This document shows positions 35,833-58,968 of a stretch of DNA of 64,000 bases, in pieces. Numbering within the stretch: position 1 is the first letter of the stretch; every line of letters starts with the position of its first letter. Under the pieces are notes generated by a model. The model did no database searches. It was not told the DNA's origin and was given only the letters and a program-made list of their open reading frames with translations. A program made the translations under genes and the position numbers. Source of the DNA: Burkholderiales bacterium (GTDB lineage: Bacteria > Pseudomonadota > Gammaproteobacteria > Burkholderiales > Casimicrobiaceae); contig JABTUF010000004.1 of NCBI GenBank assembly GCA_015075645.1, forward strand, positions 1 through 64,000. Direction: 5' to 3'.

Positions 35833-39380
<3,548 letters not shown>

Positions 39381-39523: not shown

Positions 39524-41209
39524 TCAGTAGATGTCGTGCTGGGTGTTGTAGACGTTGAACTTGCCGGTCGGCGTGATCATCTTCGGATCGGTGATCACCT
39601 TCTTGACCGCCAGCGTCTTGTCGTCGTAGACGACGATCGCCGACTGGTCGGTCTTGCCGCCCCACAGCGAGATCCACACCTCGGTGCCGTCCGCGCTGTA
39701 CTCGGGGTGCACCGCGCGCCGGATCGCCTTGGTCTCCGGCAGGCCGGAGTCCTTCGCGACGTTGATCACCTTCTTGGGCTTCGACAGGTCGGCCATGTCC
39801 CACACGACCACCGATTCGGCGATCTCGCGCTCGGGGTTCTGCGGCGCGTCGGCCCACAGGTGCTTCGACTTCGGGTGCGTCTTCACGAACAGGTTGCCTG
39901 CGCCGACGTGCTTGACCTCCTGCACGACCTTCCAGTTGTGCTTCTTGTACTTGGCGTCGGCAGGCTTGTCGGACGGCGTGCTGATCAGCGTGACCACCGC
40001 ATCGCCCAGATGGCCCGTCGCCCAGACCGGACCGTACTCCGGATGCTTGAAGTTGGCGCCGCGCCCCGGGTGCGGGATCTTCTTCGTGTCGACGAGCGCC
40101 GCGAGCTTGCCGGTCTTGGTGTCGACCGCCGCGATCTTGTTCGACGCGTTCGCGGCCACGAGGAAGTAGCGCTTCGAGGCGTCCCAGCCACCGTCGTGCA
40201 GGAACTTCGCCGACTCGATCGTCGTGACCTTCAGGTTCTTGATGTCCGAGTAGTCGACGAGCTGGATCTGCCCGGTCTCCTTGATGTTCACGACCCACTC
40301 GGGCTTGAGTTCGGAGGACACGATCGACGCGACGCGCGGCTCGGGGTGGTACTCGCCGTCGACCGTCATGCCGCGCGTGGACACGACCTTGATCGGCTCG
40401 AGCGTCTTGCCGTCCATGATCACGTACTGCGGCGGCCAGTACGAGCCCGCGATCGCGTACTTGTCCTCGAAACCCCTGAACTTCGAGGTGTCGACCGAGC
40501 GCGCGTCGAATCCGATCTTGACCTCGGCGACGACCGCCGGCTTCTCCATCCACAGGTCGATCAGCGACAGGCGGCCGTCGCGGCCGATCACGTAGATGTA
40601 GCGGCCCGACTTGGACAGACGCGAGATGTGCACCGCGTACCCGGTCTTGACGATGCTGCGGATCTCCTTGGTGTCGCCGTCGATCAGCGCGACCTCGCCG
40701 GTGTCGCGCAGCGTGACCGAGAACACGTTCTTCAGGTTGATGCCGTTCATCTGCTTTTTCGGCCGCTCGGCGACCGGAACGATCACCTTCCACGAGTCCC
40801 GCGTCTCCTTCAGGCTGTACTCGGGCGGCACATCCGGGACCTCCTGGATGTAGCGCGCCATCAGCGAGATCTCCTCCTTGGTCAGGATGTCGTCGAAGTT
40901 GACCATCCCGCCCTCGGTGCCGAAGGCGATGATCTTCTCGAGCCTCGGAGTGCCGAGCTTGACCGTGCCGCCTTCCTGGGTCGAACCGTCGGCGAGCTTC
41001 TTCGACCAGTGCGGCTCGAGGTTCTTGCCCGTCGCGCCCTTGCGCAGCACGCCGTGGCAGCCGGCGCAGCGCTCGAAGTAGATCTTCTTCGCCTGCTCCT
41101 TCTCGGCCGCGGTCAGAGCCGCTCCCGCGGCTTGCTGCGCGTATGCCTGCGAAACGGCGAACGGCAACGCGGCGACGGCCGCCGCGCCCAACCACCAGCG
41201 AATGCCCAT
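39524..41209 (-). CDS. nirS: Cytochrome cd1 nitrite reductase NirS (copy 2)
   Basis: This is a second, divergent 561-residue cd1 nitrite reductase. It keeps the signal peptide, heme c motif [20 protein letters not shown], d1 His in [16 protein letters not shown], active-site His in [11 protein letters not shown] and KFLHDGGWD, and the C-terminus [11 protein letters not shown]. The cytochrome c domain differs from copy 1, with an insertion around HWSKKLADGSTQEGG. I prefer the ATG at 41209 because AGGAG lies six bases upstream; the ATG two codons earlier is too close to it. First gene of the nirS2-nirT block. Confidence 0.96.
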   Translation of the reverse strand: MGIRWWLGAAAVAALPFAVSQAYAQQAAGAALTAAEKEQAKKIYFERCAGCHGVLRKGATGKNLEPHWSKKLADGSTQEGGTVKLGTPRLEKIIAFGTEGGMVNFDDILTKEEISLMARYIQEVPDVPPEYSLKETRDSWKVIVPVAERPKKQMNGINLKNVFSVTLRDTGEVALIDGDTKEIRSIVKTGYAVHISRLSKSGRYIYVIGRDGRLSLIDLWMEKPAVVAEVKIGFDARSVDTSKFRGFEDKYAIAGSYWPPQYVIMDGKTLEPIKVVSTRGMTVDGEYHPEPRVASIVSSELKPEWVVNIKETGQIQLVDYSDIKNLKVTTIESAKFLHDGGWDASKRYFLVAANASNKIAAVDTKTGKLAALVDTKKIPHPGRGANFKHPEYGPVWATGHLGDAVVTLISTPSDKPADAKYKKHNWKVVQEVKHVGAGNLFVKTHPKSKHLWADAPQNPEREIAESVVVWDMADLSKPKKVINVAKDSGLPETKAIRRAVHPEYSADGTEVWISLWGGKTDQSAIVVYDDKTLAVKKVITDPKMITPTGKFNVYNTQHDIY

Positions 41210-41299
41210 GCCCATCTCCTTCTCCCTGGTCCTAGCGTGTCAGGAACGGAAAACCGCCCATTGCCTGACGTCATTGTGAAAACCGGGACCGGCGGAACC

Positions 41300-42912: not shown

Positions 42913-42926
42913 TTGATGCCGGTCAA
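42913..42926. promoter_or_regulatory. DNR/FNR-type box upstream of the DUF2249 gene
   Basis: TTGATGCCGGTCAA fits TTGAT-N4-RTCAA and is nearly identical to the box before nirS1. It lies 61 bp before the DUF2249 start on the minus strand and eight bases from the ctaA stop. Confidence 0.75.
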
Positions 42927-42933
42927 TGGCCGG

Positions 42934-44019
42934 TCAGGACCGGCGCGTGACGTGCGCGGCGTTCAGGGCGAGGGCGAGCAGGATCACCGCACCCGCCTGA
43001 TGCAGTGCCGCAAGCGAGAGCGGCACGACGTAGAGCAGCGTCGCGATGCCGAGTCCGATCTGCACCGCGAGCATCGCGAGGGTCAGCGCACCGGCGCGGC
43101 TCACGTGCGCACCGAGCCGCGCGTGGCGGAGCTTCCACCACGTCACCGGAACCGCGAAGGCGAGCAGCCATGCGCCGAGACGGTGGTCGAACTGCACGGT
43201 CGCCATGTTCCAGACGAAGTTCCGCCACCACGGCTCGAGCATCATGATCTCGGGCGGCACGATGCTGCCGTTCATCAGCGGGAACGTGTTGTACGCGAAA
43301 CCGGCGCGGATGCCGGCGACGAGCCCGCCCGACAGCGCCATCGCGAACACGAGCAGCGCGGTCCCCGCGCTCCAGCGCCGCGCGCTTCGCGTGCCCTCGT
43401 CGTCGCGGCGCACCCGGTCGGGGCGGAGCAGCGACATCGCCACCCAGAGCATCGCGGCGAAGATCAGGAGCGCGAGCCCGAGATGCGCAGTGAGCCGCAG
43501 CGGCGACACGCGCGGATCCTCGACCAGTCCGCTCGCGACCATGTACCAGCCCATCGCGCCCTGCAGACCGCCGAGCGCGAAGATGCAGGCGAGCGGCCAG
43601 CCGTAGCCCTCCGGGATGCGGCGGCGCAGCAGGAACCCCAGGAACGGCAGCAGGAACGCGACGCCGATCAGCCGACCGAGGAGCCGATGGAAGTATTCCC
43701 ACCAGAAGATGCCCTTGAACTCGTCCAGGGACATCCCCGCGTTGACCAGCCGGTACTCCGGCGTGAGCTTGTACTTGTCGAAGGTCGCCTGCCACTCCGC
43801 GTCGTCGAGCGGCGGCAGCGTCCCCACGATCGGCTGCCACTCGACGATCGACAGGCCCGAATGGGTGAGCCGGGTGACGCCGCCCACCACGACCATCGCG
43901 AACACCAGCGCACAGCACGCGAAGAGCCACGCGGCGACCGCGCGGCGCGCATCGCCGGCGCGTGCGCTCGCGCCGCGCGGCGCGGCGGAAAAGGAAGTCG
44001 CGTGAGCCACCGCCCGCAT
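42934..44019 (-). CDS. ctaA: Heme A synthase CtaA/COX15
   Basis: This 361-residue inner-membrane protein has eight hydrophobic segments. It contains the COX15 motifs VVVGGVTRLTHSGLSIVEW, IFWWEYFHRLLGRLIGVAF, a His in LTAHLGLALLI, FDHRLGAWLLAF and LAALHQAGAVILLAL, which supply heme-binding histidines. It converts heme O to heme A. It is divergent from the heme-copper gene cluster, suggesting that at least one nearby oxidase-like enzyme uses heme A. A near-FNR box (TTGACCTGGATCGA, 44045-44058) lies just upstream. Confidence 0.93.
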   Translation of the reverse strand: MRAVAHATSFSAAPRGASARAGDARRAVAAWLFACCALVFAMVVVGGVTRLTHSGLSIVEWQPIVGTLPPLDDAEWQATFDKYKLTPEYRLVNAGMSLDEFKGIFWWEYFHRLLGRLIGVAFLLPFLGFLLRRRIPEGYGWPLACIFALGGLQGAMGWYMVASGLVEDPRVSPLRLTAHLGLALLIFAAMLWVAMSLLRPDRVRRDDEGTRSARRWSAGTALLVFAMALSGGLVAGIRAGFAYNTFPLMNGSIVPPEIMMLEPWWRNFVWNMATVQFDHRLGAWLLAFAVPVTWWKLRHARLGAHVSRAGALTLAMLAVQIGLGIATLLYVVPLSLAALHQAGAVILLALALNAAHVTRRS

Positions 44020-44087: not shown

Positions 44088-44101
44088 TTGATGGGTATCA
44101 A
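44088..44101. promoter_or_regulatory. Perfect FNR/DNR box before the norSY-like operon
   Basis: TTGATGGGTATCAA is an exact match to TTGAT-N4-ATCAA. It lies in the divergent region between ctaA and the small membrane protein gene, 93 bp before that start. It is the best site of this type seen in the window. Confidence 0.85.
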
Positions 44102-44193
44102 TTACGCCATGCGCGTGCGACCCCGAGAATTCCCGACATCGCCGCACCTGCGCGAGCTTCGTGCGCCGCGGCGTTCAACCAGGGGGCACGACC

Positions 44194-44364
44194 ATGGCCA
44201 GCACGAACCACCCGCCGCGCGACAGCGAGGACGAACCCGTCCCCGCGATGCAGCAGATCCTCGACAACCCCTTCCTCCTGCTCTTCATCGGCGTCGCGAT
44301 GCCCACGGTGCTCTACATCGTGTGGGGCGTGATGGAGATCGTCGGCATCCCCATCGCCAAGTGA
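44194..44364 (+). CDS. Small single-TM protein, probable oxidase-type accessory subunit
   Basis: The 56-residue protein has a charged N-terminus and one TM helix (FLLLFIGVAMPTVLYIVWGV). It is the first gene of the heme-copper cluster and precedes subunit II by 25 bp. Small one-helix subunits are common beside B-family and C-family heme-copper enzymes. No sequence family is recognised. Confidence 0.7.
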   Translation: MASTNHPPRDSEDEPVPAMQQILDNPFLLLFIGVAMPTVLYIVWGVMEIVGIPIAK

Positions 44365-44389
44365 CCGGCCAGCCCAAGGAGAACGCCGC

Positions 44390-44938
44390 ATGAGCGCCCT
44401 CTCGTCCCCCACCGATCCCGTATGGTGGAAACAGCCGCTCGACCGTGTCGAGGGCACCTGGATCGGCATCGCCTTCATCTGGTGCATGGTGATGTTCTTC
44501 ATGATGCCGTACTGGCACGTGTTCGGTAAGCAGAACCTCAGCAACGAGGCCTACCGCACCACGCCCGAGGCCTACCAGGCGAAGACCCAGGCCATGGTGG
44601 ACAAGTACACGATCCGCGAGGAGACCGAGCAGAAGATCCCCGTGGTCGCGCCGCCGCCGGGCAGCGACGTCTACCTGATCGCGCGGCTGTGGCAGTGGTG
44701 GCCGATGGTCGAGCTCGAGGAGGGCAAGACCTACCGGCTGCACCTCGCGTCGATGGACTGGCTGCACGGATTCTCGCTGCAGCCCGAGAACATCAACGTC
44801 CAGGTCCACCCCGGCTACGAACACATCATGACGGTGACGCCCACCCGGGCCGGCACCTATTCGATCATCTGCAACGAGTACTGCGGCATCAACCATCACA
44901 CGATGGCGAGCCGGCTGTACGTCGTCAAGGCCAAGTGA
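44390..44938 (+). CDS. Heme-copper enzyme subunit II with CuA site (NorS-like)
   Basis: The 182-residue subunit II has one N-terminal TM helix (WIGIAFIWCMVMFFMMPYWH) and a periplasmic cupredoxin domain. All CuA ligands can be seen: the His in SMDWLHGFSLQ, and Cys, Glu, Cys, His and Met in CNEYCGINHHTM. It would accept electrons from a cytochrome c or cupredoxin and pass them to subunit I. AAGGAG lies nine bases before the ATG. Short length and order match the ba3 or NorS type. Confidence 0.88.
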   Translation: MSALSSPTDPVWWKQPLDRVEGTWIGIAFIWCMVMFFMMPYWHVFGKQNLSNEAYRTTPEAYQAKTQAMVDKYTIREETEQKIPVVAPPPGSDVYLIARLWQWWPMVELEEGKTYRLHLASMDWLHGFSLQPENINVQVHPGYEHIMTVTPTRAGTYSIICNEYCGINHHTMASRLYVVKAK

Positions 44939-44942
44939 GGGG

Positions 44943-46667
44943 ATGAACATGGCCGTCAACCGGATGTTCCGCACCTGCCCGTCCAGCGGGCTCGTCTACC
45001 ACGCGCCGGCGGAGAAGCTCATCCGCTGGAACGCGGTCGCCGCGGTGGTCTCGCTGCTCGTCGGCGGGATCCTCGCGCTGCTGGTCACGCTCACGCGCTG
45101 GCCGGCCGTCCACCTGCTGCCGCCGGACTGGTTCTACCTGACGCTGACCGCGCACGGGCTCAACATGCTCGTGTACTGGATCATCTTCTTCGAGATCGCG
45201 GTGCTCTACTTCGCCGCCAGCGTGCTGCTCAAGTGCCGGATCGCGACCCCGGGCATCGCCTGGGCCGGATTCTGGCTGATGGTGATCGGCGCGCTGGTGA
45301 ACAACGTCGCGGTGTTCCGCGGCGACTCGTCGGTGATGTTCACCTCGTACGTGCCGATGGGCGCGCACCCGGCGTTCTACCTCGGCCTCATCCTGTTCGC
45401 CGTCGGCGCGCTGATCGCCTGCTTCGTGTTCTTCGGCACGCTCGTGATCGGGCGCGCCGAGCGCACCTACAACGGCTCGGTGCCGCTGGTCACGTTCGGC
45501 GCGGTGACGGCCGGGATCATCGCGGTCTTCACGATCGCGTCGGGCGCGATCATCCTGATCCCGACCTTCCTGTGGTCGCTCGGGCTGATCGACCACGTCG
45601 ACTCGCTGATGTACCGGACCGTGTGGTGGGGCTTCGGCCACAGCTCGCAGCAGATCAACGTGTCCGCGCACGTCGCGGTCTGGTACGCGATCGCCGGCGT
45701 GGTCTTCGGCGCGAAGCCGATGTCGGAGAAGGTCTCGCGGGTGGCGTTCTTCCTCTACATCTGCTTCCTGCAGCTCGCGAGCGCCCACCACCTGCTCGCC
45801 GACCCCGGTCTCACGTCGAACTGGAAGATCTTCAACACCAGCTACGCGATGTACCTCGCGGTGCTGGCGTCGATGGTGCACGGGCTGACCGTCCCCGGCG
45901 CGATCGAGGTCGCCCAGCGCGAGAAGGGCTACAACCGCGGCCTGTTCGAATGGCTGCGCAAGGCGCCGTGGTCGAATCCGAGCTTCTCGGCGATGTTCAT
46001 GTCGCTGATCGGCTTCGGCTTCCTCGGCGGGATCTCGGGCGTGATGATGGGGACCGAGCAGTTGAACCTCATCATCCACAACACGATCTACGTCCCCGGC
46101 CACTTCCACGCCACGGTCGTCGTCGGCACCACGCTCGCGTTCATGGGGCTCACCTACTTCCTGATCCCGACGCTGTTCCGGCGCGAGCTCATGTTCCCGA
46201 CGCTCGCGAAGTGGCAGCCCTACCTGTTCGGGCTCGGCATGATGGCGTTCACGCTCTTCATGATGGGCGCGGGGACGCTCGGGGTGCCGCGGCGCCACTG
46301 GGACATGTCGTTCGCCGGCAACGCGCTCGGCTACGAGTTCCCGGGAACCGCGTACCTGATGATGGGACTCACCGGCATCAGCGGCGTCATCGCGATCGTC
46401 GGCGGCGCAGCATACCTCCTTATCACGGTGTGCAGCGTGTTCATCGGCAAGCGCATCGAGACGCCGGACTTCAAGTACGTGCCGGTCAAGGAAGGCCGCG
46501 CTCCGGCGCCGGTGCCCGCGCCAGCTCCGGTCGCGCACACCGGCATCGGGACGGCGGGCTTCGTGGCGCCGGGGACCTTCGTCCTCGCGCTGGTGTTCCT
46601 GACGGCGTTCATCCTCTACTACTTCGTCAACTGGAAGTACCTGTCCACCGTGTGGCCGATGTCCTGA
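44943..46667 (+). CDS. B-family heme-copper subunit I with Tyr-to-Gln change, probable NO reductase (NorY-like)
   Basis: The 574-residue membrane protein aligns with ba3-type subunit I. Ligands are His71 (low-spin heme), His233, His282 and His283 (CuB), His387 (high-spin heme) and His389. In O2-reducing ba3 enzymes the helix VI motif is HPIVY, with the Tyr cross-linked to the CuB His. Here it reads HSSQQ, placing Gln237 at that position. This loss argues against normal O2 reduction and fits NO reductases. Context agrees: a perfect FNR/DNR box, the nir cluster, and SenC downstream, as in the norSY-senC operon of ammonia oxidisers. The C-terminus has a Pro/Ala linker and an extra TM helix. Confidence 0.8.
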   Translation: MNMAVNRMFRTCPSSGLVYHAPAEKLIRWNAVAAVVSLLVGGILALLVTLTRWPAVHLLPPDWFYLTLTAHGLNMLVYWIIFFEIAVLYFAASVLLKCRIATPGIAWAGFWLMVIGALVNNVAVFRGDSSVMFTSYVPMGAHPAFYLGLILFAVGALIACFVFFGTLVIGRAERTYNGSVPLVTFGAVTAGIIAVFTIASGAIILIPTFLWSLGLIDHVDSLMYRTVWWGFGHSSQQINVSAHVAVWYAIAGVVFGAKPMSEKVSRVAFFLYICFLQLASAHHLLADPGLTSNWKIFNTSYAMYLAVLASMVHGLTVPGAIEVAQREKGYNRGLFEWLRKAPWSNPSFSAMFMSLIGFGFLGGISGVMMGTEQLNLIIHNTIYVPGHFHATVVVGTTLAFMGLTYFLIPTLFRRELMFPTLAKWQPYLFGLGMMAFTLFMMGAGTLGVPRRHWDMSFAGNALGYEFPGTAYLMMGLTGISGVIAIVGGAAYLLITVCSVFIGKRIETPDFKYVPVKEGRAPAPVPAPAPVAHTGIGTAGFVAPGTFVLALVFLTAFILYYFVNWKYLSTVWPMS

Positions 46668-46749
46668 CCACGCGGCTCGCGTCCGCGCGCGGCGGGCGGC
46701 CCTCCGCCCCCGCCGCCCGCCCGCGGACCCCCGCGCAAGGACTTCCGCG

Positions 46750-47655
46750 ATGAGCACCACGACACCCGCCCTCTCCCGCGCGCCGCGGTCGATGTCCGGC
46801 TGGCGGCTCGTCTTCGACCTGTTCAAGCTCCGCATCGGCGTCGCCATCGGCGCCACGGCGCTCGCCGGCCTCGCGATCGCGCCAGGCGCCGTTTCCGCAT
46901 GGCGTGCCGCCGCGGTCGTGCTCGCGGTGACGCTCGCCTCGGCCGCCGCCGGCGCGTTCAACCAATACGTCGAGCGGGACATCGACGGCTCGATGCGCCG
47001 CACCCGCCATCGCGCGTTCGTCACCGGCCGCCTCGCCGCCGGTCCGTTCTGGCCGTTCGTCATCGGCGTGGTGGCCTCCTCGGGCGTCGCGCTCGCCTGG
47101 GTCGCCGCCAACGGTCTCGCGGCGCTCTACACCGCGCTCGGCGCGTTCACCTACGGCGTCGTCTACACCGTGTGGCTCAAGCGCCGGACCGCCTGGAACA
47201 TCGTGATCGGAGGACTCGCCGGCAGCTTCGCGGTGCTGGCCGGCGCCGCCGCCGTCGCTCCCGGGATCCCCGATCCGGTGACGCTCGCCTTCGCCGTCGT
47301 CCTGTTCCTGTGGACGCCCCCGCATTTCTGGAGCCTCGCGATCGCCTACCGCGACGACTACGCGGCGGCGCGCGTGCCGATGCTCCCGGTGGTGGCGGGT
47401 GACGCCGCGGCCGCGCGCGCCGTGTTCTCCGGCGCCGCGATGCTCGTGATCGCATCGGTGGTTCCGGGCTTTCTCGGCATGTCCTGGTTCTACGTCGCAT
47501 GCGCGCTCGCCGGTGGGACGCTCCTCCTCGCGCGTGCCGGACAGCTCGCGCTCGAGCCGACGCGCGCGCGCGCGCTCGCGAGCTTCCACGCCTCGCTCGT
47601 GCAACTCTCGTTCCTGATCGTCGCGGCCTGCGCCGATCCGCTGTTCCGTGCCTGA
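46750..47655 (+). CDS. ctaB: Protoheme IX farnesyltransferase (heme O synthase) CtaB
   Basis: The 301-residue UbiA-family prenyltransferase has the first Asp-rich motif NQYVERDIDGSMRRTRHR near residue 75 and the second, YRDDYAAARVPMLPVVAG, near 198, with about eight TM helices. It farnesylates heme B to heme O, the precursor used by CtaA. Position after subunit I shows that the complex probably needs heme O or A. Its stop overlaps the senC start. Confidence 0.94.
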   Translation: MSTTTPALSRAPRSMSGWRLVFDLFKLRIGVAIGATALAGLAIAPGAVSAWRAAAVVLAVTLASAAAGAFNQYVERDIDGSMRRTRHRAFVTGRLAAGPFWPFVIGVVASSGVALAWVAANGLAALYTALGAFTYGVVYTVWLKRRTAWNIVIGGLAGSFAVLAGAAAVAPGIPDPVTLAFAVVLFLWTPPHFWSLAIAYRDDYAAARVPMLPVVAGDAAAARAVFSGAAMLVIASVVPGFLGMSWFYVACALAGGTLLLARAGQLALEPTRARALASFHASLVQLSFLIVAACADPLFRA

Positions 47656-48508
47656 CGCTCCCGACCCCAAGGCGCTGAACCGGCTGCTGCTCGCCGCGTT
47701 CCTCGGGCTCGTGTTCCTGATCGCCTGGGGCGTGGTGCAGGGACAGGCGCTGCCCGCCGGGACCGCGCTCGACCAGCGCCGGGCGCTCGAGACGAGTCAG
47801 CGGGCGATCGGCGGCACCGTCGGCGACCACGTGCTCACGACCTCCGACGGCCGCCGGATCCGCATGTCCGAGTTTCGCGGCCGGCCGCTCGTCGTCTCGT
47901 TCATCTACACCGGCTGCTTCCAGGTCTGCCCGGTGACCACCGGCTTCCTCGCGGAGGCGGTGGCCGCGGCGCGCCGCGCGGTCGGCGACGACAGCTTCCG
48001 CGTGCTGACCATCGGCTTCAACCTGCCGTTCGATTCGCCGACCGCGATGCGCGAGTTCGCGCGCAAGCACGCGGTGATCGACCCGCGCTGGACCTTCGCC
48101 ACGCCGACGCCCGAGTCGCTCGATGCCCTCGCGCGCGAGACGGGTTTCCAGTGGGTGTCGACCGGCGGCGGGTTCGACCACCTGACGCAGGCGACGATCC
48201 TCGACCGTGACGGCCGCGTCGTGCGCCAGGTCTACGGCGACCGCTTCGAATTGCCGATGTTCGTGGCGCCGATGCGAGCGCTCGTGCTGGGCGACCCGGC
48301 GCCGGCGGTCGATCTCGCGAGCCTCGTCGAGCGCGTGCGGGTGCTGTGCACGATCTACGATCCCCGTTCCGGCCGCTACCGTCTCGACTACGGACTCTTC
48401 ATCGAGCTCTTCACCGGGACCACCATCATCATCGGCACCCTCTGGTACCTGATCGCGGCATCCCGCCGCCGCGACCGCCGCGGTCCGCCCGGTCCGAACC
48501 CCGCCTGA
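47648..48508 (+). CDS. senC: SCO1/SenC copper chaperone with C-terminal TM
   Basis: The 286-residue protein has an N-terminal TM anchor (RLLLAAFLGLVFLIAWGVV), a thioredoxin-like domain with the copper motif YTGCFQVCPV, and the matching His in GGGFDHLTQ. It also has an unusual second TM near the C-terminus (LFIELFTGTTIIIGTLWYLI). Sco proteins load the CuA site of subunit II. The GTG start overlaps the ctaB stop. Pairing with the CuA subunit gene upstream is as expected. Confidence 0.92.
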   Translation: MPDAPDPKALNRLLLAAFLGLVFLIAWGVVQGQALPAGTALDQRRALETSQRAIGGTVGDHVLTTSDGRRIRMSEFRGRPLVVSFIYTGCFQVCPVTTGFLAEAVAAARRAVGDDSFRVLTIGFNLPFDSPTAMREFARKHAVIDPRWTFATPTPESLDALARETGFQWVSTGGGFDHLTQATILDRDGRVVRQVYGDRFELPMFVAPMRALVLGDPAPAVDLASLVERVRVLCTIYDPRSGRYRLDYGLFIELFTGTTIIIGTLWYLIAASRRRDRRGPPGPNPA

Positions 48509-48673: not shown

Positions 48674-50611
48674 ATGCTGAGCCTCATCCAACGCTCCGGA
48701 CAGGCCGTGTTCCTCGCGGTCGAACGGATCTTCAACCGGGCCTTCGGCGAGGCGTCCAACCCGTTCTACCACCTGGGCGCGATCAGCCACTTCCTGCTGT
48801 GGATCGTCGTCGCGAGCGGACTCTACCTGTACGTGTTCTTCTCCACCGGCGTCGTCGAAGCCTTCAGTTCGGTCGAGGCGATCACCCACGGACAGCGCTG
48901 GGTCGGCGGCATCATGCGAAGCCTGCACCGCTACGCTTCCGGCGGCATGGTGCTGACGATGCTGCTGCACGTCGTCCGCCATTTCACCTTCGACCGCTAC
49001 CGCGCGTTCCGCTGGTTCTCGTGGGTGTCGGGCGTCGTCCTGCTGTGGCTGGTCTACATCTCGGGCATCAACGGCTACATGCTGCCCTGGGACCGCCTCG
49101 CGCAGTTCGTCGTCGTCGCGACGACCGAGTGGCTCGACTGGCTGCCGATCTTCCGCGGAACGCTGGTGCGCAACTTCATCACGCCCGAAGCGGTCAACGA
49201 CCGGCTCTTCTCACTGCTGTCGTTCCTGCACATCGGGCTGCCGCTCGGCGTGCTGGGGCTCCTGTGGGTGCACACGCAGCGGGTGCCGGGGGCCAAGACC
49301 CGCCCGCCGCGCTCGATCGCGATCCCGCTGACGGTCGCCCTCGTCGTCCTGTCGATCGTGCGGCCCGCGGTGTCGCTCCCGCCGGCCGACCTGATGACGG
49401 TGCCGACGTCGATCTCGTTCGACTGGTTCTATCTGCCGGCGCTCGCCGCGCACGACGTGTGGGGGCCGGCGCTGGTGTGGGCGGTGGTCATCGGCGCCAC
49501 GGTGTTCGCGCTCGCGCTGCCGTGGCTGCCGCCGAAGCGCGAATCGAAGGTGATCCGCCACGTCGCGGTGCGTCCGGACAACCGCATCGTTCCCGCGCGG
49601 GGCGGCGAATCGCTGCTCGAGGCGCTGCTGCGCGAGTCGATCCCGATGCCCTACGACTGCCGCAGCGGCGGCTGCGGGCAGTGCAAGTGCACGGTCCTGT
49701 ACGGCGACGTCGAACTCGCCGCGTACCAGTCCGACGTCCTCACCGACGACGAGCGCCGCGCCGGCAAGGTCTTGGCGTGCATCGCCACGCCGACGACCGA
49801 CGTCGAGATCGAGTATCAGCCGGTCGCGCTCCCCGGCGGCAACGTCCCCCGCGTCTGGCACGCCAAGGTGGCCTCGATCGCGAAGGCGGCGGAGGACGTG
49901 ATGATCGTCCACCTCGCGGTCGACCGCGGTGAGGAGTTGCACTTCTACGCCGGCCAGTACATCAACGTGCTGCTGCCCGACGGGCAGAAGCGCAGCTTCT
50001 CGTTCGCCACGGCGCCGGGCGACGGCCGCCGGATCGAACTGCAGATCCGGCGCGTGCCCGGCGGCCGCTACACGACGCACGTGTTCGAGGAAATGCGCGT
50101 CGGCGATCCGGTCGAGTTCGAGGGCCCGCTCGGGTCGTTCTTCCTGCGGGAGAACTCGAAGAAGCCGATCGTGTTCGTCGCGGGCGCGACCGGATTCGCC
50201 CCGGTCAAGAGCATGGTCGAGTACGCGTTCGCCAAGGGCATGAAGCGGCCGATGGTGCTCTACTGGGGCACGCGCAAGGCGCGCGACATGTACGCGCGCG
50301 AACTGTGCGAGCGCTGGGCGCGCGAGCACGAGAACTTCACGTTCGTGCCGGTGCTCTCCGATCCCGGTCCCGACGATCGCTGGACCGGGCGCACCGGCCT
50401 CGTGCACGAGGCGATCCTCGCCGACTATCCGTCGCTCGCCGACCACCAGGTGTACGCCTGCGGCTCGGTCGCGATGGTCGAGGCCGCGCACCCGGCGTTC
50501 CGCGCACGCGGCATGGATCCGAACGACTGCTTCTCCGATGCCTTCCGCCTCTCGCCGCATCTCGCGCGCGAGACGCCGGAGGAAGACGCCGTCCGCCTCG
50601 GAGGGGCGTGA
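48674..50611 (+). CDS. Cytochrome b - 2Fe-2S ferredoxin - flavin reductase fusion
   Basis: This 645-residue protein has three redox modules. Residues 1-250 are a four-helix cytochrome b/b6 N-terminal domain with two heme b His pairs (RSLHRYASGG and LLHVVRHF; FLHIGLPL and VHTQRV). Residues about 300-385 are a plant-type ferredoxin with CRSGGCGQC and a later LACIA Cys. Residues about 400-645 are a ferredoxin-reductase-like FAD/NAD domain with RSFSFATAPG and FVAGATGFAPVKS. It should move electrons between NAD(P)H and membrane hemes or quinone. It heads a tight five-gene cluster. I know no characterised enzyme with this order. Confidence 0.85.
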   Translation: MLSLIQRSGQAVFLAVERIFNRAFGEASNPFYHLGAISHFLLWIVVASGLYLYVFFSTGVVEAFSSVEAITHGQRWVGGIMRSLHRYASGGMVLTMLLHVVRHFTFDRYRAFRWFSWVSGVVLLWLVYISGINGYMLPWDRLAQFVVVATTEWLDWLPIFRGTLVRNFITPEAVNDRLFSLLSFLHIGLPLGVLGLLWVHTQRVPGAKTRPPRSIAIPLTVALVVLSIVRPAVSLPPADLMTVPTSISFDWFYLPALAAHDVWGPALVWAVVIGATVFALALPWLPPKRESKVIRHVAVRPDNRIVPARGGESLLEALLRESIPMPYDCRSGGCGQCKCTVLYGDVELAAYQSDVLTDDERRAGKVLACIATPTTDVEIEYQPVALPGGNVPRVWHAKVASIAKAAEDVMIVHLAVDRGEELHFYAGQYINVLLPDGQKRSFSFATAPGDGRRIELQIRRVPGGRYTTHVFEEMRVGDPVEFEGPLGSFFLRENSKKPIVFVAGATGFAPVKSMVEYAFAKGMKRPMVLYWGTRKARDMYARELCERWAREHENFTFVPVLSDPGPDDRWTGRTGLVHEAILADYPSLADHQVYACGSVAMVEAAHPAFRARGMDPNDCFSDAFRLSPHLARETPEEDAVRLGGA

Positions 50612-50614
50612 GCG

Positions 50615-51133
50615 ATGGGTGCCTATCCGGTCAACCGTGTCGTGAGCTACGCCGGCCAGGCGGTCGGCTACGCCGCGTTCTGCGTCGCGCTCGCCTACTT
50701 CGCCGTCCGCCCGGAATGGCATCCGATCCCTCCGGACACCGCGCTCGTGAAGGTGTCGCTGCAGCACGCCGGACAGCGCAAGGAGGCCTGCCGCGAGCGC
50801 ACACCCGAGGAACTCGCGAAGCTCGCGCCCAACATGCGCGCCGCCAGCGTCTGCCCGCGCGAGCGCGTCCCGGTCGCCGTCGAGATCGCGCTCGACGGCC
50901 GCACGATCGTCTCCGAGGTCCTGCCGCCTTCCGGGCTCGCGCGGGACGGCAGTTCGACGTTCTACCGCCGGGTCGCGGTGCCCGCGGGCGAGCATCGCGT
51001 CGTCGCGAAACTGGGCGACTCGCCGGAGCCGGGATTCGGGCACGTGAAGGAAGCCACGGTCACGCTCGCGCCCGGAGCGATCCTGCTGCTCGATTTCGAC
51101 GCGAAGTCCGGCGGCTGGCTGTTCCGTTCCTGA
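50615..51133 (+). CDS. One-TM protein of the cytochrome b operon, function unknown
   Basis: The 172-residue protein has one N-terminal TM helix (VGYAAFCVALAYFAV) and an otherwise soluble domain of beta strands with two Cys (EACRERTPEE and ASVCPRER) and YRRVAVPAGEHRVVAK. It starts three bases after the stop of the fusion gene. The topology suggests a periplasmic domain. A structural or assembly subunit is a fair guess; no family is recognised. Confidence 0.75.
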   Translation: MGAYPVNRVVSYAGQAVGYAAFCVALAYFAVRPEWHPIPPDTALVKVSLQHAGQRKEACRERTPEELAKLAPNMRAASVCPRERVPVAVEIALDGRTIVSEVLPPSGLARDGSSTFYRRVAVPAGEHRVVAKLGDSPEPGFGHVKEATVTLAPGAILLLDFDAKSGGWLFRS

Positions 51134-51169
51134 GTCGCGGCGGGGGCGCGGGACCGGCCCGGGCAATCT

Positions 51170-51183
51170 TTGGCGCACGTCAA
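51170..51183. promoter_or_regulatory. DNR-like box inside the cytochrome b operon
   Basis: TTGGCGCACGTCAA keeps eight of ten positions of TTGAY-N4-RTCAA. It lies 34 bp before the second cytochrome b fusion gene. If used at the common -41.5 spacing, transcription would begin at or next to the ATG. It may be a weak internal promoter. Confidence 0.45.
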
Positions 51184-51217
51184 TGACGCGCGCGCGCGGT
51201 CCCCGTAGAGTGGATTC

Positions 51218-52876
51218 ATGCGGTCGCCCGCTTCCGACGAGCCATCCGACGCCGGCGGCGCCGCGCGCGGCGGAGTGCGATCGGTCGCCCGCGCCGCGTT
51301 CGACCGCATCGAAGTCGCGTTCGACGCCGCGTTTCCTCCGCGCGCGAATCCCTGGCGCACGCTCGGCGGGCTCGCCTGGATCCTCTTCTGGATCGCCACG
51401 GTCAGCGGCATCTACGTCTACGTCCTGTTCGACACCCGCGCCGACGGCGCCTGGGCCTCGGTCGAGCGGATGTCGGCGAACGCGTGGCCGGGATCCGCGC
51501 TCGCGCGGAGCCTGCACCGCTACGCGTCGGACGCGTTCATCCTCGTCACGATGCTCCACCTCGCGCGCGAATGGGCGCACGGACGCTACGCGCACGTCCA
51601 TCGCTACGCCTGGATCACCGGGGTGGCGCTCGTCGCGTTCGTCTACGGATCGGGCCTGGTCGGATTCTGGCTCGTCTGGGACCGGCTCGCGCAATACTCG
51701 ATCGTCGCGACGACCGAGTGGCTCGACGTGCTGCCGATCTTCGCCGAGCCGCTCGCGGGCAATTTCGACGCCAACGCGCGGATCGACGACCGGCTGTTCT
51801 CGCTCCTGATCTTCCTGCACATCGGCATCCCGCTCGCCACGCTCGCGCTCATGTGGGCGCACGTGCAGCGCCTGAAGCGCCCCGCGACGCAGCCCGCGAG
51901 AACGGTCGCGTGGGGCACGCTCGCCGCGCTCGTGCTCGTCTCGCTCGCCGTGCCGGTGACGAGTCACGCGCCCGCCGATCTCGCGACGGTTCCGGAAACC
52001 CTCGCCCTCGACTGGTTCTACCTGGCGCCGCACGCGCTGCAGGACGCGTCCTCGCCGCAGGCGCTGTGGGCGGTGGTCGCGGCCGCGGCGGCGCTGCTGC
52101 TGTCGCTGCCCTGGCGCTCGCGCGCGGCGCGCGCACCGCGGCCCGAAGCCGCGGTCGTCGCGCTCGAGTTCTGCAACGGCTGCCGCCGCTGCGTCGCCGA
52201 CTGCCCGTACGACGCGATCGAGATGGTGCCGCGCTCCGACGGCCGGGCGCATCCGTTCGAGGCGCGCGTCGCCGCCGACCGCTGCGCCGGCTGCGGCATC
52301 TGCGCCGGCGCGTGTCCGTCGTCGGTGCCGTTCCGCTCGGTCGCGGACCTCGTGTCCGGCATCGACATGCCGCAGAAGCCGATCGGCGCGATGCGCGAGA
52401 CGCTCGAACGCGAACTCGCGCGCATCGCCGCCTCCCGGCGGGAGGGCGCGGCGCGCTCGCCGCGCGTGGTGGTCGTCGGCTGCGAGGAGGCGATCGACGT
52501 CCGCTCGTTGCGCGACCGCGACACCGCCGCGCTCCCGCTCCTGTGCACCGCGCAACTCCCGCCGTCGTTCGTCGACTACGCGCTGCGCAGCGGCGCGGAC
52601 GGCGTGCTCGTCACCGGATGTCGCGAAGGCGACTGCGTCTGGCGGCTGGGCCAGGACTGGGTCGGCGAGCGTTTCGCCGGCGACCGCGCGCCGAAGCTGC
52701 GCGCGGTCGTGCCGCGCGAGCGCGTGCGCATCGCCTGGGCCGGTCCACCGGACCGCGCGGCGCTCGACGCCGCGCTCGCCTCGTTCCGCCGCGACCTGGC
52801 CGCGTTGCCCGATGCGGAACACCGGTCGGTGGTCGCGCCCAAACGCGAGCCGTCTAGAATGGCGGCCTCGCCATGA
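51218..52876 (+). CDS. Cytochrome b - 2x[4Fe-4S] - MvhD-like fusion
   Basis: This 552-residue protein starts with a second four-helix cytochrome b domain (His in RSLHRYASDA, TMLHLAREW, FLHIGIPL and WAHVQRL). Near residues 318-370 it has two [4Fe-4S] motifs, CNGCRRCVADCP and CAGCGICAGACP. From about 410 it has a domain like MvhD/FlpD of hydrogenase-heterodisulfide reductase complexes, with GADGVLVTGCREGDC near 460. MvhD passes electrons by a 2Fe-2S centre. No hydrogenase or Hdr gene is present. The cytochrome part is paralogous to that at 48674. The 3-prime end overlaps the next gene by four bases. Confidence 0.85.
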   Translation: MRSPASDEPSDAGGAARGGVRSVARAAFDRIEVAFDAAFPPRANPWRTLGGLAWILFWIATVSGIYVYVLFDTRADGAWASVERMSANAWPGSALARSLHRYASDAFILVTMLHLAREWAHGRYAHVHRYAWITGVALVAFVYGSGLVGFWLVWDRLAQYSIVATTEWLDVLPIFAEPLAGNFDANARIDDRLFSLLIFLHIGIPLATLALMWAHVQRLKRPATQPARTVAWGTLAALVLVSLAVPVTSHAPADLATVPETLALDWFYLAPHALQDASSPQALWAVVAAAAALLLSLPWRSRAARAPRPEAAVVALEFCNGCRRCVADCPYDAIEMVPRSDGRAHPFEARVAADRCAGCGICAGACPSSVPFRSVADLVSGIDMPQKPIGAMRETLERELARIAASRREGAARSPRVVVVGCEEAIDVRSLRDRDTAALPLLCTAQLPPSFVDYALRSGADGVLVTGCREGDCVWRLGQDWVGERFAGDRAPKLRAVVPRERVRIAWAGPPDRAALDAALASFRRDLAALPDAEHRSVVAPKREPSRMAASP

Positions 52877-54306
52877 CCGCCGCCACCGCGCCCGACCGCG
52901 GCCGCGCGACCGCCGTGCGCTCCGACGCCGTCCCCGACTCCGGCCGCTACACGATCGACGTCCCGCACGACGCACGCGCGGCGCTCGCGACCGGATGGTT
53001 CGCGCTCGGGGTGGGCGCGCTCGCCGCGTCGGGCCTCCTCGCCGTCTTCCTCGCCCTCGCGCGCACGCCGGGTGTCGGCCGCTTCCTGCCTGCGGGCGAT
53101 TTCTTCCGCACCGTGCTGGTCGCGCACGTCGACCTCTCGGTGCTCGTCTGGTTCGTCGCGTTCGCCGGCACGATCTGGAGCCTCAACAGCACCACGCGCG
53201 GGATCGTCGCCGGCCGCATCGCGCTCTCGCTGGGCGCGATCGGCGCCATGCTGATCGCCGTCGCGCCGTTCCTCGATCCCGCCGCCCCGATCATGGCGAA
53301 CTACATCCCGGTGATCGACGGCCCGGTGTTCCTCGCCGGACTCGCGACCTTCGGAGCCGGCGCGACGCTGCTGGTGCTGCGGGGACTGTCGGCCTCGCCG
53401 CTCGTGGGCGTGCGCCTCGACGGGTCCGGCGCGCTCCGCTTCGGCATCAATGCGTCGCTCGTCGCGGGCGCGGTGGCGATCCTCGCGTTCGCGTGGTCGA
53501 TCGCCGCGGTGCCGCCCTCGCTCGAACCGCGCGCGTGGTACGAACTCGCGTTCTGGGGCGGCGGCCACGTGCTGCAGTTCGCGTGGACGCTCCTGCTGCT
53601 CGTCGCCTGGCTCGTGCTCGCGGATGCCGCCGATGTCCGCGTGCCGATCTCGCCGCGCGTCGTCGCGCTCCTGTTCGGGATCCAGCTCGTCGCGGTCTTC
53701 GCGACGACGATCGTCTACCTCGCCTGGGACGTCACGTCGGTCGAGCATCACCGGATGCAGACCTGGCTGATGCGGATCGGCGGCACGCTCGCGATTCCGG
53801 TGGTCGCCGCCGCGATCGCGGTGGGTCTCGCGCGGCGCCTTCGTGCCGCCCCGATGGCCGCGGAGGCGAGGCCGCTCGTCGCCGCGCTCGTCGTGTCGAT
53901 GGTCCTGTTCGGCGCCGGCGGCGTCATCGGCTTCCTGATCCGCGGCAGCGACGTCCGCATCCCGGCGCACTACCACGGCGCGATCGTCGGCGTCACGATC
54001 GCGATGATGGGGCTCGCGTACTGGCTGCTGCCGCGGCTCGGCGCCGCGCCGCCGCGTCCGCGGCTCGCGGTGTGGCAATCGGTGCTCTACGGCGCCGGGC
54101 AGCTGATGCACGTCACCGGGCTCCTCTGGTCGGGCGGCTACGGCGTGCAGCGCAAGGTCGCAGGCGGCGAACAGGTGCTGCGCTCGGCCGGCGAGATCGC
54201 CGGGATGGGGCTCATGGGCGCGGGCGGACTCGTCGCGGTCGCGGGCGGCGTGCTGTTCATCGTCGTCGTCGCGCTCGCGGTGCGCGACCGGAAGCGCCCC
54301 GCGTGA
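52873..54306 (+). CDS. Divergent heme-copper oxidase superfamily subunit I
   Basis: The 477-residue, about 12-helix membrane protein keeps all six metal-ligand His: His85 (VAHVDLSVLVWF), His232 (GGGHVLQFAW), His292 and His293 (VEHHRMQTW), and His366 and His368 (PAHYHGAIVG). The position four after the helix VI His is Phe236, and Gln235 precedes it, so the cross-linked Tyr of A- and B-family oxidases is absent. A Tyr elsewhere, as in cbb3, cannot be excluded. No CuA or c-type subunit is adjacent; the partners are cytochrome b fusions. It may reduce NO or O2. Confidence 0.75.
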   Translation: MTAATAPDRGRATAVRSDAVPDSGRYTIDVPHDARAALATGWFALGVGALAASGLLAVFLALARTPGVGRFLPAGDFFRTVLVAHVDLSVLVWFVAFAGTIWSLNSTTRGIVAGRIALSLGAIGAMLIAVAPFLDPAAPIMANYIPVIDGPVFLAGLATFGAGATLLVLRGLSASPLVGVRLDGSGALRFGINASLVAGAVAILAFAWSIAAVPPSLEPRAWYELAFWGGGHVLQFAWTLLLLVAWLVLADAADVRVPISPRVVALLFGIQLVAVFATTIVYLAWDVTSVEHHRMQTWLMRIGGTLAIPVVAAAIAVGLARRLRAAPMAAEARPLVAALVVSMVLFGAGGVIGFLIRGSDVRIPAHYHGAIVGVTIAMMGLAYWLLPRLGAAPPRPRLAVWQSVLYGAGQLMHVTGLLWSGGYGVQRKVAGGEQVLRSAGEIAGMGLMGAGGLVAVAGGVLFIVVVALAVRDRKRPA

Positions 54307-55211
54307 ACGGCGTCGTCCTCGCGCGGCGGCTCGCGATCGGCGCGGCCGGCGCGGTGTTCATGGTGATCGTCGCGAGCGCGTGGCTGCGGCATTCGCTCGC
54401 CGGCCTCATGTGCGCCGACTGGCCTGCATGCTATGGCGTCGTCGATCCGCCGCAGGCGATCCCCGGGGCGTTCTTCGCGCGGCTCGTCCACCGCTTCGCG
54501 GCGTCCGCCGCGCTCATCATGGCCGCGCTCATCCCGTTCCTGGCGCTGCGTGCGCGGAGCGGGTTCGACGCCGAGCGGAGGCTGGCGTGGCTCGCGCTCG
54601 CGATCGCGCTCGGCCTCGCCGCACTGGGCATCGCGACGCCCGGCGCGCGCGTGCCGGCGATCGCGCTCGGCAATCTCGTCGGCGGCTTCGCGCTCCTCGC
54701 GACGCTCGTCGTACTCGCGGTGCGGATCGCCGGCATCCGGTCGTCCGGGAGCACGACGCTCGCGCTCATCGCGCTCCTCGTCGTCTTCGCACAAGTCGCG
54801 ACCGGCGGCATGATCGGCGCGCAGTACGCGCTCACCTCCTGTCCGGCGGCGTTCGATTGCCCGGGCGCCGATCTCGCCTCGGTCGCGGGGTCGGGCGCGC
54901 TCGATCCGCTGCGGCGGATCGAGGTGGTCGCGGGACGCGTCCGCCCGCCCGACGGCGCCGCGGCGCTCGTGGTGCTCCATCGCCTGCTCGCGATCGCCGC
55001 GCTCGCGACTTCGTTCGCGGCCGCGTGGTCGTTGCGCAGGCAGCGCGCGCTCGCCGGCGCGACGGTCCTGACGGCGCTCGGCGCGGCCGTGTCGGGGGCG
55101 GCGGCGGCCTTCGCGCAGCCCTCGCTCCCCGCCACGCTCGCGCACAACGCGTTCGCCGCGTTCCTCGTCGCCGCGCTCGCCGCGGCCGTGTTCCGCCGCC
55201 GTTCCGGTTGA
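54303..55211 (+). CDS. CtaA/COX15-like protein
   Basis: This 302-residue protein with about eight TM helices is related to heme A synthase but shorter and diverged from the copy at 42934. Recognisable parts are HSLAGLMCADWPACYGVVDP (a Cys pair typical of type 1 CtaA loops), LVHRFAASAALI, a later Cys pair in SCPAAFDCPG, VVLHRLLAIAAL and LAHNAFAAFLVAAL. Its GTG overlaps the stop of the heme-copper subunit (GTGA). It probably makes or delivers heme A for that subunit. Confidence 0.75.
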   Translation: MNGVVLARRLAIGAAGAVFMVIVASAWLRHSLAGLMCADWPACYGVVDPPQAIPGAFFARLVHRFAASAALIMAALIPFLALRARSGFDAERRLAWLALAIALGLAALGIATPGARVPAIALGNLVGGFALLATLVVLAVRIAGIRSSGSTTLALIALLVVFAQVATGGMIGAQYALTSCPAAFDCPGADLASVAGSGALDPLRRIEVVAGRVRPPDGAAALVVLHRLLAIAALATSFAAAWSLRRQRALAGATVLTALGAAVSGAAAAFAQPSLPATLAHNAFAAFLVAALAAAVFRRRSG

Positions 55212-55273: not shown

Positions 55274-55660
55274 ATGATGGCCGCACGCAAGCCCGAGGAC
55301 GTCCACGCATTGTTCGGCCGGCACTTCGCCGCCGGTGACATGGACGCGCTTCTGTCGCTCTACGAGCCCACGGCGATTCTCGTCCCGCAGCCGGGCAAGG
55401 TCGCGCGCGGGCCTTCGGCGATCCGCGAGTCGCTCTCGGCGTTCCTCGCGATGAAGGGCACGTTCCGCTTCGAGTCGATCCGGACGCTGCAGGCCGACGA
55501 CATCGCGGTCGTCTTCGCGCGCTGGACGCTCGACGCGAAGGCGCCCGACGGCAGCCCGATCCACCTCGCGGGCGAAACCTCCGACGTCATCCGCCGCCAG
55601 CCGGATGGCTGCTGGCTCCTCGCGATCGACAGCCCCTTCGGTTCGGCCGGCGCTCCCTGA
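55274..55660 (+). CDS. SnoaL-like/DUF4440 small protein
   Basis: The 128-residue protein has the NTF2-like cone fold pattern: VHALFGRHFAAGDMDALLSL, YEPTAILVPQPG, then GPSAIRESLSAFLAM and a closing strand CWLLAIDSPFG. DUF4440/SgcJ-type proteins are small ligand-binding or isomerase-like proteins. A GAGGAA lies just before the start; a second ATG follows directly. It is not obviously part of the operon upstream. Confidence 0.8.
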   Translation: MMAARKPEDVHALFGRHFAAGDMDALLSLYEPTAILVPQPGKVARGPSAIRESLSAFLAMKGTFRFESIRTLQADDIAVVFARWTLDAKAPDGSPIHLAGETSDVIRRQPDGCWLLAIDSPFGSAGAP

Positions 55661-58954: not shown

Positions 58955-58968
58955 TTGATCCGGGTCAA
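58955..58968. promoter_or_regulatory. FNR/DNR-type box between nrdD and the PCuAC gene
   Basis: TTGATCCGGGTCAA matches TTGAT-N4-RTCAA. It lies 129 bp before nrdD on the minus strand and 78 bp before the copper chaperone gene on the plus strand, so it could serve either. Control of nrdD by anaerobiosis is the natural reading. Confidence 0.75.

Follow-up and report, generated by a model that had tools for sequence, protein, structure and literature searches.

The five genes A–E (48674–55211) make up the distal half of an operon that has at its head the genes of sNOR, a proposed family of nitric oxide (NO) reductases, with which they are presumably co-transcribed. On balance we lean toward a role of proteins A, C and B as the electron-input module of sNOR, in which NAD(P)H or ferredoxin (or quinol) would be the donor and NO the acceptor. 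The evidence ties A, C and B to sNOR far more firmly than it fixes the direction of electron flow or the path to CuA. sNOR, a widespread candidate NO reductase, is a potential source of N2O for which neither the substrate (NO or O2) nor the electron donor is settled. With a near-obligate partner of the cytochrome b-[Fe-S]-FlpD type across Proteobacteria, the donor question becomes accessible to testing.

Organization of the sNOR gene cluster

An inspection of the window, a 64,000-nucleotide stretch of a Burkholderiales genome, confirmed the five genes and the spacing given in an earlier sequence-only reading. The five ORFs share the plus strand, with 3 bp between A and B, 84 bp between B and C, and overlaps of 4 bp each between C and D and between D and E. 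A (48674–50611) is a cytochrome b-ferredoxin-reductase fusion with the Pfam domains Cytochrome_B, Fer2, FAD_binding_6 and NAD_binding_1, and C (51218–52876) is a cytochrome b with an Fe-S tail (Cytochrome_B, two Fer4 and FlpD (MvhD)). B (50615–51133) is a one-TM protein with a single hydrophobic segment and no match to a Pfam or NCBIfam family. D (52873–54306) is a protein of the heme-copper oxidase fold with a weak COX1 match (39 bits against a cut-off of 34.8), and E (54303–55211), which starts with GTG, is a CtaA-like protein (COX15-CtaA, PF02628, 61 bits, above the cut-off).

The sequence-only reading took this interval for the whole of a free-standing five-gene complex. The real unit is larger, as the sNOR genes that adjoin upstream on the same strand (44161–48508) had been left uncounted. 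At the operon head lies the gene of a small one-TM protein (44161–44364, one hydrophobic segment), which was detected with a 67-aa query in 37 of 60 relatives and is possibly subunit IIa-like. It is followed by the genes of sNOR subunit II (44390–44938; COX2 match with the CuA ligand set), sNOR subunit I (44943–46667; COX1, 226 bits), the heme o synthase CtaB/CyoE (46750–47655; TIGR01473 above the cut-off) and a SCO/SenC family protein (47648–48508; PF02630), all on the plus strand. The gap of 166 bp between the SCO gene and A and the presence of two CtaA-like genes at the locus bear on whether all ten genes form one transcript. A promoter and terminator scan across the operon gave no signal above chance.

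A ctaA gene (42934–44019, minus strand) is divergent from the sNOR operon. Between the two lies an FNR/DNR-type box, TTGATGGGTATCAA (44088–44101), a perfect match to the palindrome and a putative regulatory site of the sNOR operon. With at most one mismatch, 10 such boxes are found in the 64-kb window, compared with 1.4 expected. Additional perfect boxes are located at 37670 and 41300 (upstream of both nirS copies), at 42913, and at 58955, just upstream of an anaerobic ribonucleotide reductase gene.

sNOR subunits and NirS in the genome

Subunit II is a cupredoxin subunit with the CuA ligands, in which H126, C161, C165 and H169 are invariant and E163 and M172 lie within the motif CNE.CGi.HH.M downstream of the invariant histidine (67 sequences). 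The metal and heme histidines H71, H233, H282, H283, H387 and H389 of subunit I are invariant or nearly so (70 sequences). The aligned sequences of subunit I have no tyrosine at H233+4, where the motif reads GHSSQQIN. The active-site residue of sNOR is given as Asn, with no helix-VI Tyr (PMC8756737 Table A4), and an Asn, possibly the residue meant there, is found here at H233+6. sNOR (NorSY) is known from the norSY-senC-orf1 cluster of ammonia oxidizers (PMC4940428, PMC6967387). Judged from their sequences, subunits I and II agree with what has been published for sNOR, namely a B-type subunit I without the active-site tyrosine, a cupredoxin subunit II and a SCO/SenC neighbor. The published cluster of four genes, however, has no cytochrome b, FlpD or D gene in its list, whereas C and B are nearly always part of the loci studied here and A, D and E often are. 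Among solved structures, subunit I aligns best with the ba3-type oxidases of the B family, from which it differs in the missing catalytic tyrosine. Subunit I is likely the NO-reducing catalytic subunit; the activity is a prediction, and the closeness to ba3 oxidases counts against it. sNOR frequently appears in annotations as "cbb3-type cytochrome c oxidase subunit I".

The genome of the window is 98.85% complete and encodes five PF00115 proteins: A1, A2 and cbb3 oxidases (assigned by motif), sNOR subunit I and D. No cNOR or qNOR is present among these five. A NirS cluster is found in the window at about 30–41 kb. It contains two NirS-type genes, at 35836–37407 and 39524–41215 (both on the minus strand), with ~62% identity over 531 residues. 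In the even class sample described below, 20 of the 24 sNOR carriers have NirS, against 4.6 expected, and none was seen in the other four.

Distribution of the gene set

A profile search of GTDB genomes with D returned at least 568 relatives, of which the best 80 are mostly from Betaproteobacteria. Among 60 of the best relatives with at least 9 kb of upstream sequence, the neighborhood contained sNOR subunit I in 58, subunit II in 57, SCO in 59, C in 59, B in 60 and A in 56. The gene order is kept in the 49 relatives with full flanks, and two orders prevail, A-B-C-D as in the window and C-B-D-A. Because the best 80 are the nearest kin and not an independent sample, evenly drawn class and phylum samples were also used. 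Strong matches in the 274 genomes of the class sample numbered 24 for sNOR, 24 for C, 25 for B and 30 for D, and sNOR and C occurred together in 23 of the 24 sNOR genomes (2.1 expected). The phylum sample (289 genomes) gave 29 for sNOR and 33 for C, with both in 28. The two sNOR genomes without C (G264 and G333) have contigs that end right after sNOR subunit I or SCO, at the point where C would be expected. sNOR and C lie on separate contigs in 16 genomes and more than 13 kb from each other in another four, so tight linkage is not the only source of the co-occurrence, with the reservation that a break in the assembly may account for some of these splits. The hypergeometric P values do not correct for common ancestry and serve only as a guide. 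Dozens of species have the gene set in the same neighborhood, with sNOR and C in nearly a 1:1 relation, and this recurrence is far beyond chance. It supports the conserved co-occurrence that the sequence-only reading had set as its own check. C can be used as a genomic marker for sNOR.

An alphaproteobacterial Defluviimonas plasmid carries the arrangement x-II-I-cyoE-SCO-C-B-hemerythrin without A or D, and four genomes (G111, G228, G167 and G214) have sNOR with C-B and no match to D. A plasmid search for D returned no match. No C or B was found near the sNOR-like loci of Thermus and Thermomicrobium. Taken together, these loci suggest that Proteobacteria added C and B to sNOR as a core, and A, D and E as further elements.

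Cytochrome b proteins A and C

The sequence-only reading had proposed two paralogous cytochrome b proteins with different soluble redox modules, and this is borne out by domains, ligands and the tree. In A, the heme histidines H85, H99, H186 and H200 and the cysteines of the [2Fe-2S] cluster are conserved (69 sequences), and the tail is a BenC-like reductase (ferredoxin-FNR). In C, four heme histidines and 8 + 4 Fe-S cysteines are invariant across 87 sequences, among them the FlpD [2Fe-2S] cysteines C422, C443, C468 and C473. The structural model of C (pLDDT 89) shows a 6-TM membrane domain and a soluble tail and matches the fold of bc1 cytochrome b. As in the cytochrome b of bc1/b6f complexes, the four heme histidines lie in two TM helices with the same spacing; six of the TM helices of that protein are represented, and there may be a counterpart of its PEWY region. 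Both proteins align with bc1 cytochrome b over the full membrane domain, in a comparison that used one bc1 sequence and in which the tail alone scored weakly. With the same single sequence and weak tail score, DWFYL of A and C falls on PEWYFL of bc1; the exact PEWY is absent, and the DW at this position is invariant in C. By homology with bc1, the termini of A and C would both be cytoplasmic. Unlike the bc1/b6f proteins, A and C carry a cytoplasmic Fe-S/FlpD or flavin tail, have a shorter C-terminal part and are without a Rieske or cytochrome c1 partner; neither a Rieske protein nor cytochrome c1/f was found among the operon genes searched.

In a FastTree phylogeny rooted on the same bc1 sequence as used in the alignment, A forms a clade (support 1.0) nested within C. 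A is therefore probably a duplicate of C in which the tail was swapped for ferredoxin-FNR. A cytochrome b copy close to the sNOR cluster in genome G156 (L035:3671-6211, minus strand) carries flavodoxin, FAD and NADPH domains, and this diflavin NADPH reductase fusion is a tail exchange separate from that in A. The two independent NAD(P)H-oxidizing tails favor electron flow from NAD(P)H to the membrane. The L035 gene, whose reductase part is of the CysJ/CPR type, has NnrS, CtaG, SCO and PCuAC-like genes nearby. Lineage f192 has C in two tandem copies. The A/C paralogs, the diflavin copy and the tandem C suggest a cytochrome b dimer by analogy with bc1.

An Accumulibacter fusion of cytochrome b with an NAD(P)-flavin module, for which electron exchange between quinol and NAD(P) was proposed, was reportedly described by Garcia Martin et al. 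in 2006; it embodies the same domain idea as A. C resembles the HdrA2/MvhD-type domains in having two [4Fe-4S] clusters followed by FlpD (a match to the HdrA2 C terminus) with four conserved FlpD cysteines. It differs from them in that this tail is joined to a membrane cytochrome b and not to a flavoprotein or hydrogenase. The domain set of C is also found in one Chloroflexi ORF, RME88945.1, listed with cytochrome b6, ferredoxin-type and FlpD domains and no proposed function (PMC8756737 Table A3). Compared by listed domains, this ORF has an additional cytochrome c domain (C1) that is absent in C.

Proteins B, D and E

Across 89 sequences of B, C59 and C80 are invariant and H51 and H127 are mostly conserved. 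B is fused to C in two genomes, and the topology of this fusion would place the B domain in the periplasm. In E, H63, H226 and H281 are conserved across 41 aligned sequences, which include other CtaA-like neighbors. CtaA heme A synthases have four conserved heme histidines, and E thus falls short of this set with three.

D had been described as a divergent heme-copper subunit I that reduces NO or O2. The first part of the description holds as far as the fold is concerned: the model (pLDDT 88) is a 12-TM oxidase fold with a ba3 oxidase as the best match, and the low-/high-spin heme histidines H85, H366 and H368 are kept. The metal site does not follow, as two of the three CuB/FeB histidines are missing. 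Only H85, H232, H366, H368 and H413 are conserved in 107 sequences; the helix-VI histidine of CuB/FeB is retained, and the helix-VII pair is absent throughout the aligned family. Unlike the ba3 oxidases, D also lacks this pair in a profile alignment to a solved B-type oxidase. The two histidines of VEHH in the D of the window are not those ligands, since the motif comes after the predicted helix VII and its second histidine is not conserved. With both helix-VII histidines lost, D is unlikely to be a terminal reductase, and a complete sNOR subunit I is encoded upstream together with a CuA subunit of its own. D may instead act in heme relay or assembly.

Other assignments of D were rejected. gNOR has an active-site Asp (PMC8756737 Table A4), whereas the aligned positions of D hold Q235 and F236. 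Residues and tree also speak against a plain relationship to qNOR or cbb3. Matches to PCNA in a single-sequence PDB search were taken as composition bias, and the profile found a B-type oxidase. In this tree, read without branch supports and built without ba3 or cNOR sequences, D joins the sNOR side on a long branch.

D also occurs where sNOR is absent, in the vicinity of aa3 oxidase and heme-maturation genes. D-like proteins away from sNOR occur in L042, L044, L045, L049, L050, L051 and L057, adjoining rpoH, ctaB/ctaA with aa3 oxidase, or ResB/CcsA-like genes (identified by eye from the sequence). Copper-less oxidase relatives seem to be a class wider than the sNOR operon, and in many genomes D may be mistaken for an oxidase or NO reductase. 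Genomes G083 and G211 have D and no sNOR, with no evident cNOR or qNOR as judged by match lengths and scores.

Proposed electron transfer and alternative functions

In the proposed pathway, NirS would produce NO, and sNOR would reduce it with the CuA subunit II and the catalytic subunit I. The tail of C (FlpD [2Fe-2S] and two [4Fe-4S]) might accept electrons from a soluble cytoplasmic donor, and the tail of A would draw them from NAD(P)H via FAD and [2Fe-2S]. Electrons would then pass from the cytoplasmic-side heme b to the periplasmic-side heme b and on to CuA of sNOR, either via the quinone pool or with B as the periplasmic contact partner; no c-type cytochrome or other evident carrier from cytochrome b to CuA was found in the cluster. 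D, as an oxidase-fold heme protein without a CuB/FeB site, could function in electron relay or terminal-enzyme assembly, and the A–E set might also provide heme-maturation help. The conserved ligands in A and C, the co-occurrence of sNOR with C, NirS without cNOR or qNOR and the FNR/DNR box all support such a module, and the tie to a terminal NO reductase made in the sequence-only reading holds by way of sNOR. The absence of A and D from many sNOR-C-B loci argues against an essential role of these two, and the conserved DW in the PEWY region would fit quinol oxidation too, with electrons running the other way.

The suggested route would bring electrons from NAD(P)H or ferredoxin to NO beside the usual cytochrome c pathway and could couple a source of N2O, a greenhouse gas, directly to these intracellular donors. 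It is possible but doubtful that the proteobacterial sNOR works as a supercomplex with a dimer of bc1-like cytochrome b proteins (C-C, C-C' or A-C) that carry cytoplasmic Fe-S or flavin tails. Such a dimer would pass electrons across the membrane from NAD(P)H or ferredoxin directly to NO, or run in reverse as an NO-driven quinol bifurcation that yields NAD(P)H or reduced ferredoxin, and D would have been recruited as a copper-less heme relay. To our knowledge, such an sNOR-cytochrome b supercomplex has no characterized precedent. The claim of an undescribed complex survives in part: sNOR itself has been described, but no published association of sNOR with A, B, C or D, nor any description of a cytochrome b module with sNOR, was found in the literature searched, which did not cover the main sNOR paper, and the novelty of the module is provisional.

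Since CtaB, SCO, CtaA and E lie in or beside the cluster and the distant relatives of D adjoin aa3 oxidase, CtaA, CtaB, SCO or ResB/CcsA-like genes, A–E might be maturation factors with no share in turnover, which would deliver electrons and heme while the terminal enzyme is put together (heme o/a synthesis, copper loading). This is unlikely, as an assembly factor would hardly need the 12 Fe-S cysteines and two b hemes of C, and C follows sNOR almost 1:1 and was not seen beside the aa3 clusters examined. We regard as quite unlikely a reversed, bifurcating operation, in which C and A would oxidize quinol at a Qo-like site and send one electron to sNOR and NO and the other via the b hemes to the Fe-S or flavin groups to give reduced ferredoxin or NAD(P)H. 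The alignment of A and C along the whole bc1 membrane domain, the invariant DW of C at PEWY and the ample driving force of NO reduction speak for it. Against it, the cluster has no Rieske protein or cytochrome c1, the PEWY alignment comes from one bc1 sequence with a weak score for the tail alone, and reductase tails of the BenC and diflavin types normally take electrons from NAD(P)H and pass them outward.

Alternatively, sNOR would be mainly an O2 reductase, a high-affinity B-type oxidase, and the module would serve microaerobic respiration. Such a role was proposed for the N. europaea sNOR (PMC6967387), the best solved relatives of subunit I are ba3 oxidases, and NirS was not seen in four of the 24 carriers. 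The missing active-site tyrosine and the excess of NirS among the carriers make it improbable, as do the A1, A2 and cbb3 oxidases of the window genome and its lack of another NO reductase. A self-contained A–E complex with D as the terminal NO- or O2-reducing subunit, the model of the sequence-only reading, can claim the oxidase fold and conserved heme histidines of D and the occurrence of D without an evident NO reductase in G083 and G211. It is very improbable, because the D family is without both helix-VII CuB/FeB histidines, sNOR is present with the set in nearly all relatives, and C and B are found with sNOR but without D.

Additional genes at the loci

E is followed by a SnoaL/DUF4440-like gene (55274–55660, plus strand), which accompanies the operon in the close relatives L063–L065. 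Two copies of B flank C in the operons L069, L078 and L086. In several sNOR operons without D, a hemerythrin-like gene occurs after C-B (L208:8965-9363, L210:12436-12828, L211:3422-3814 and L178:17526-17930).
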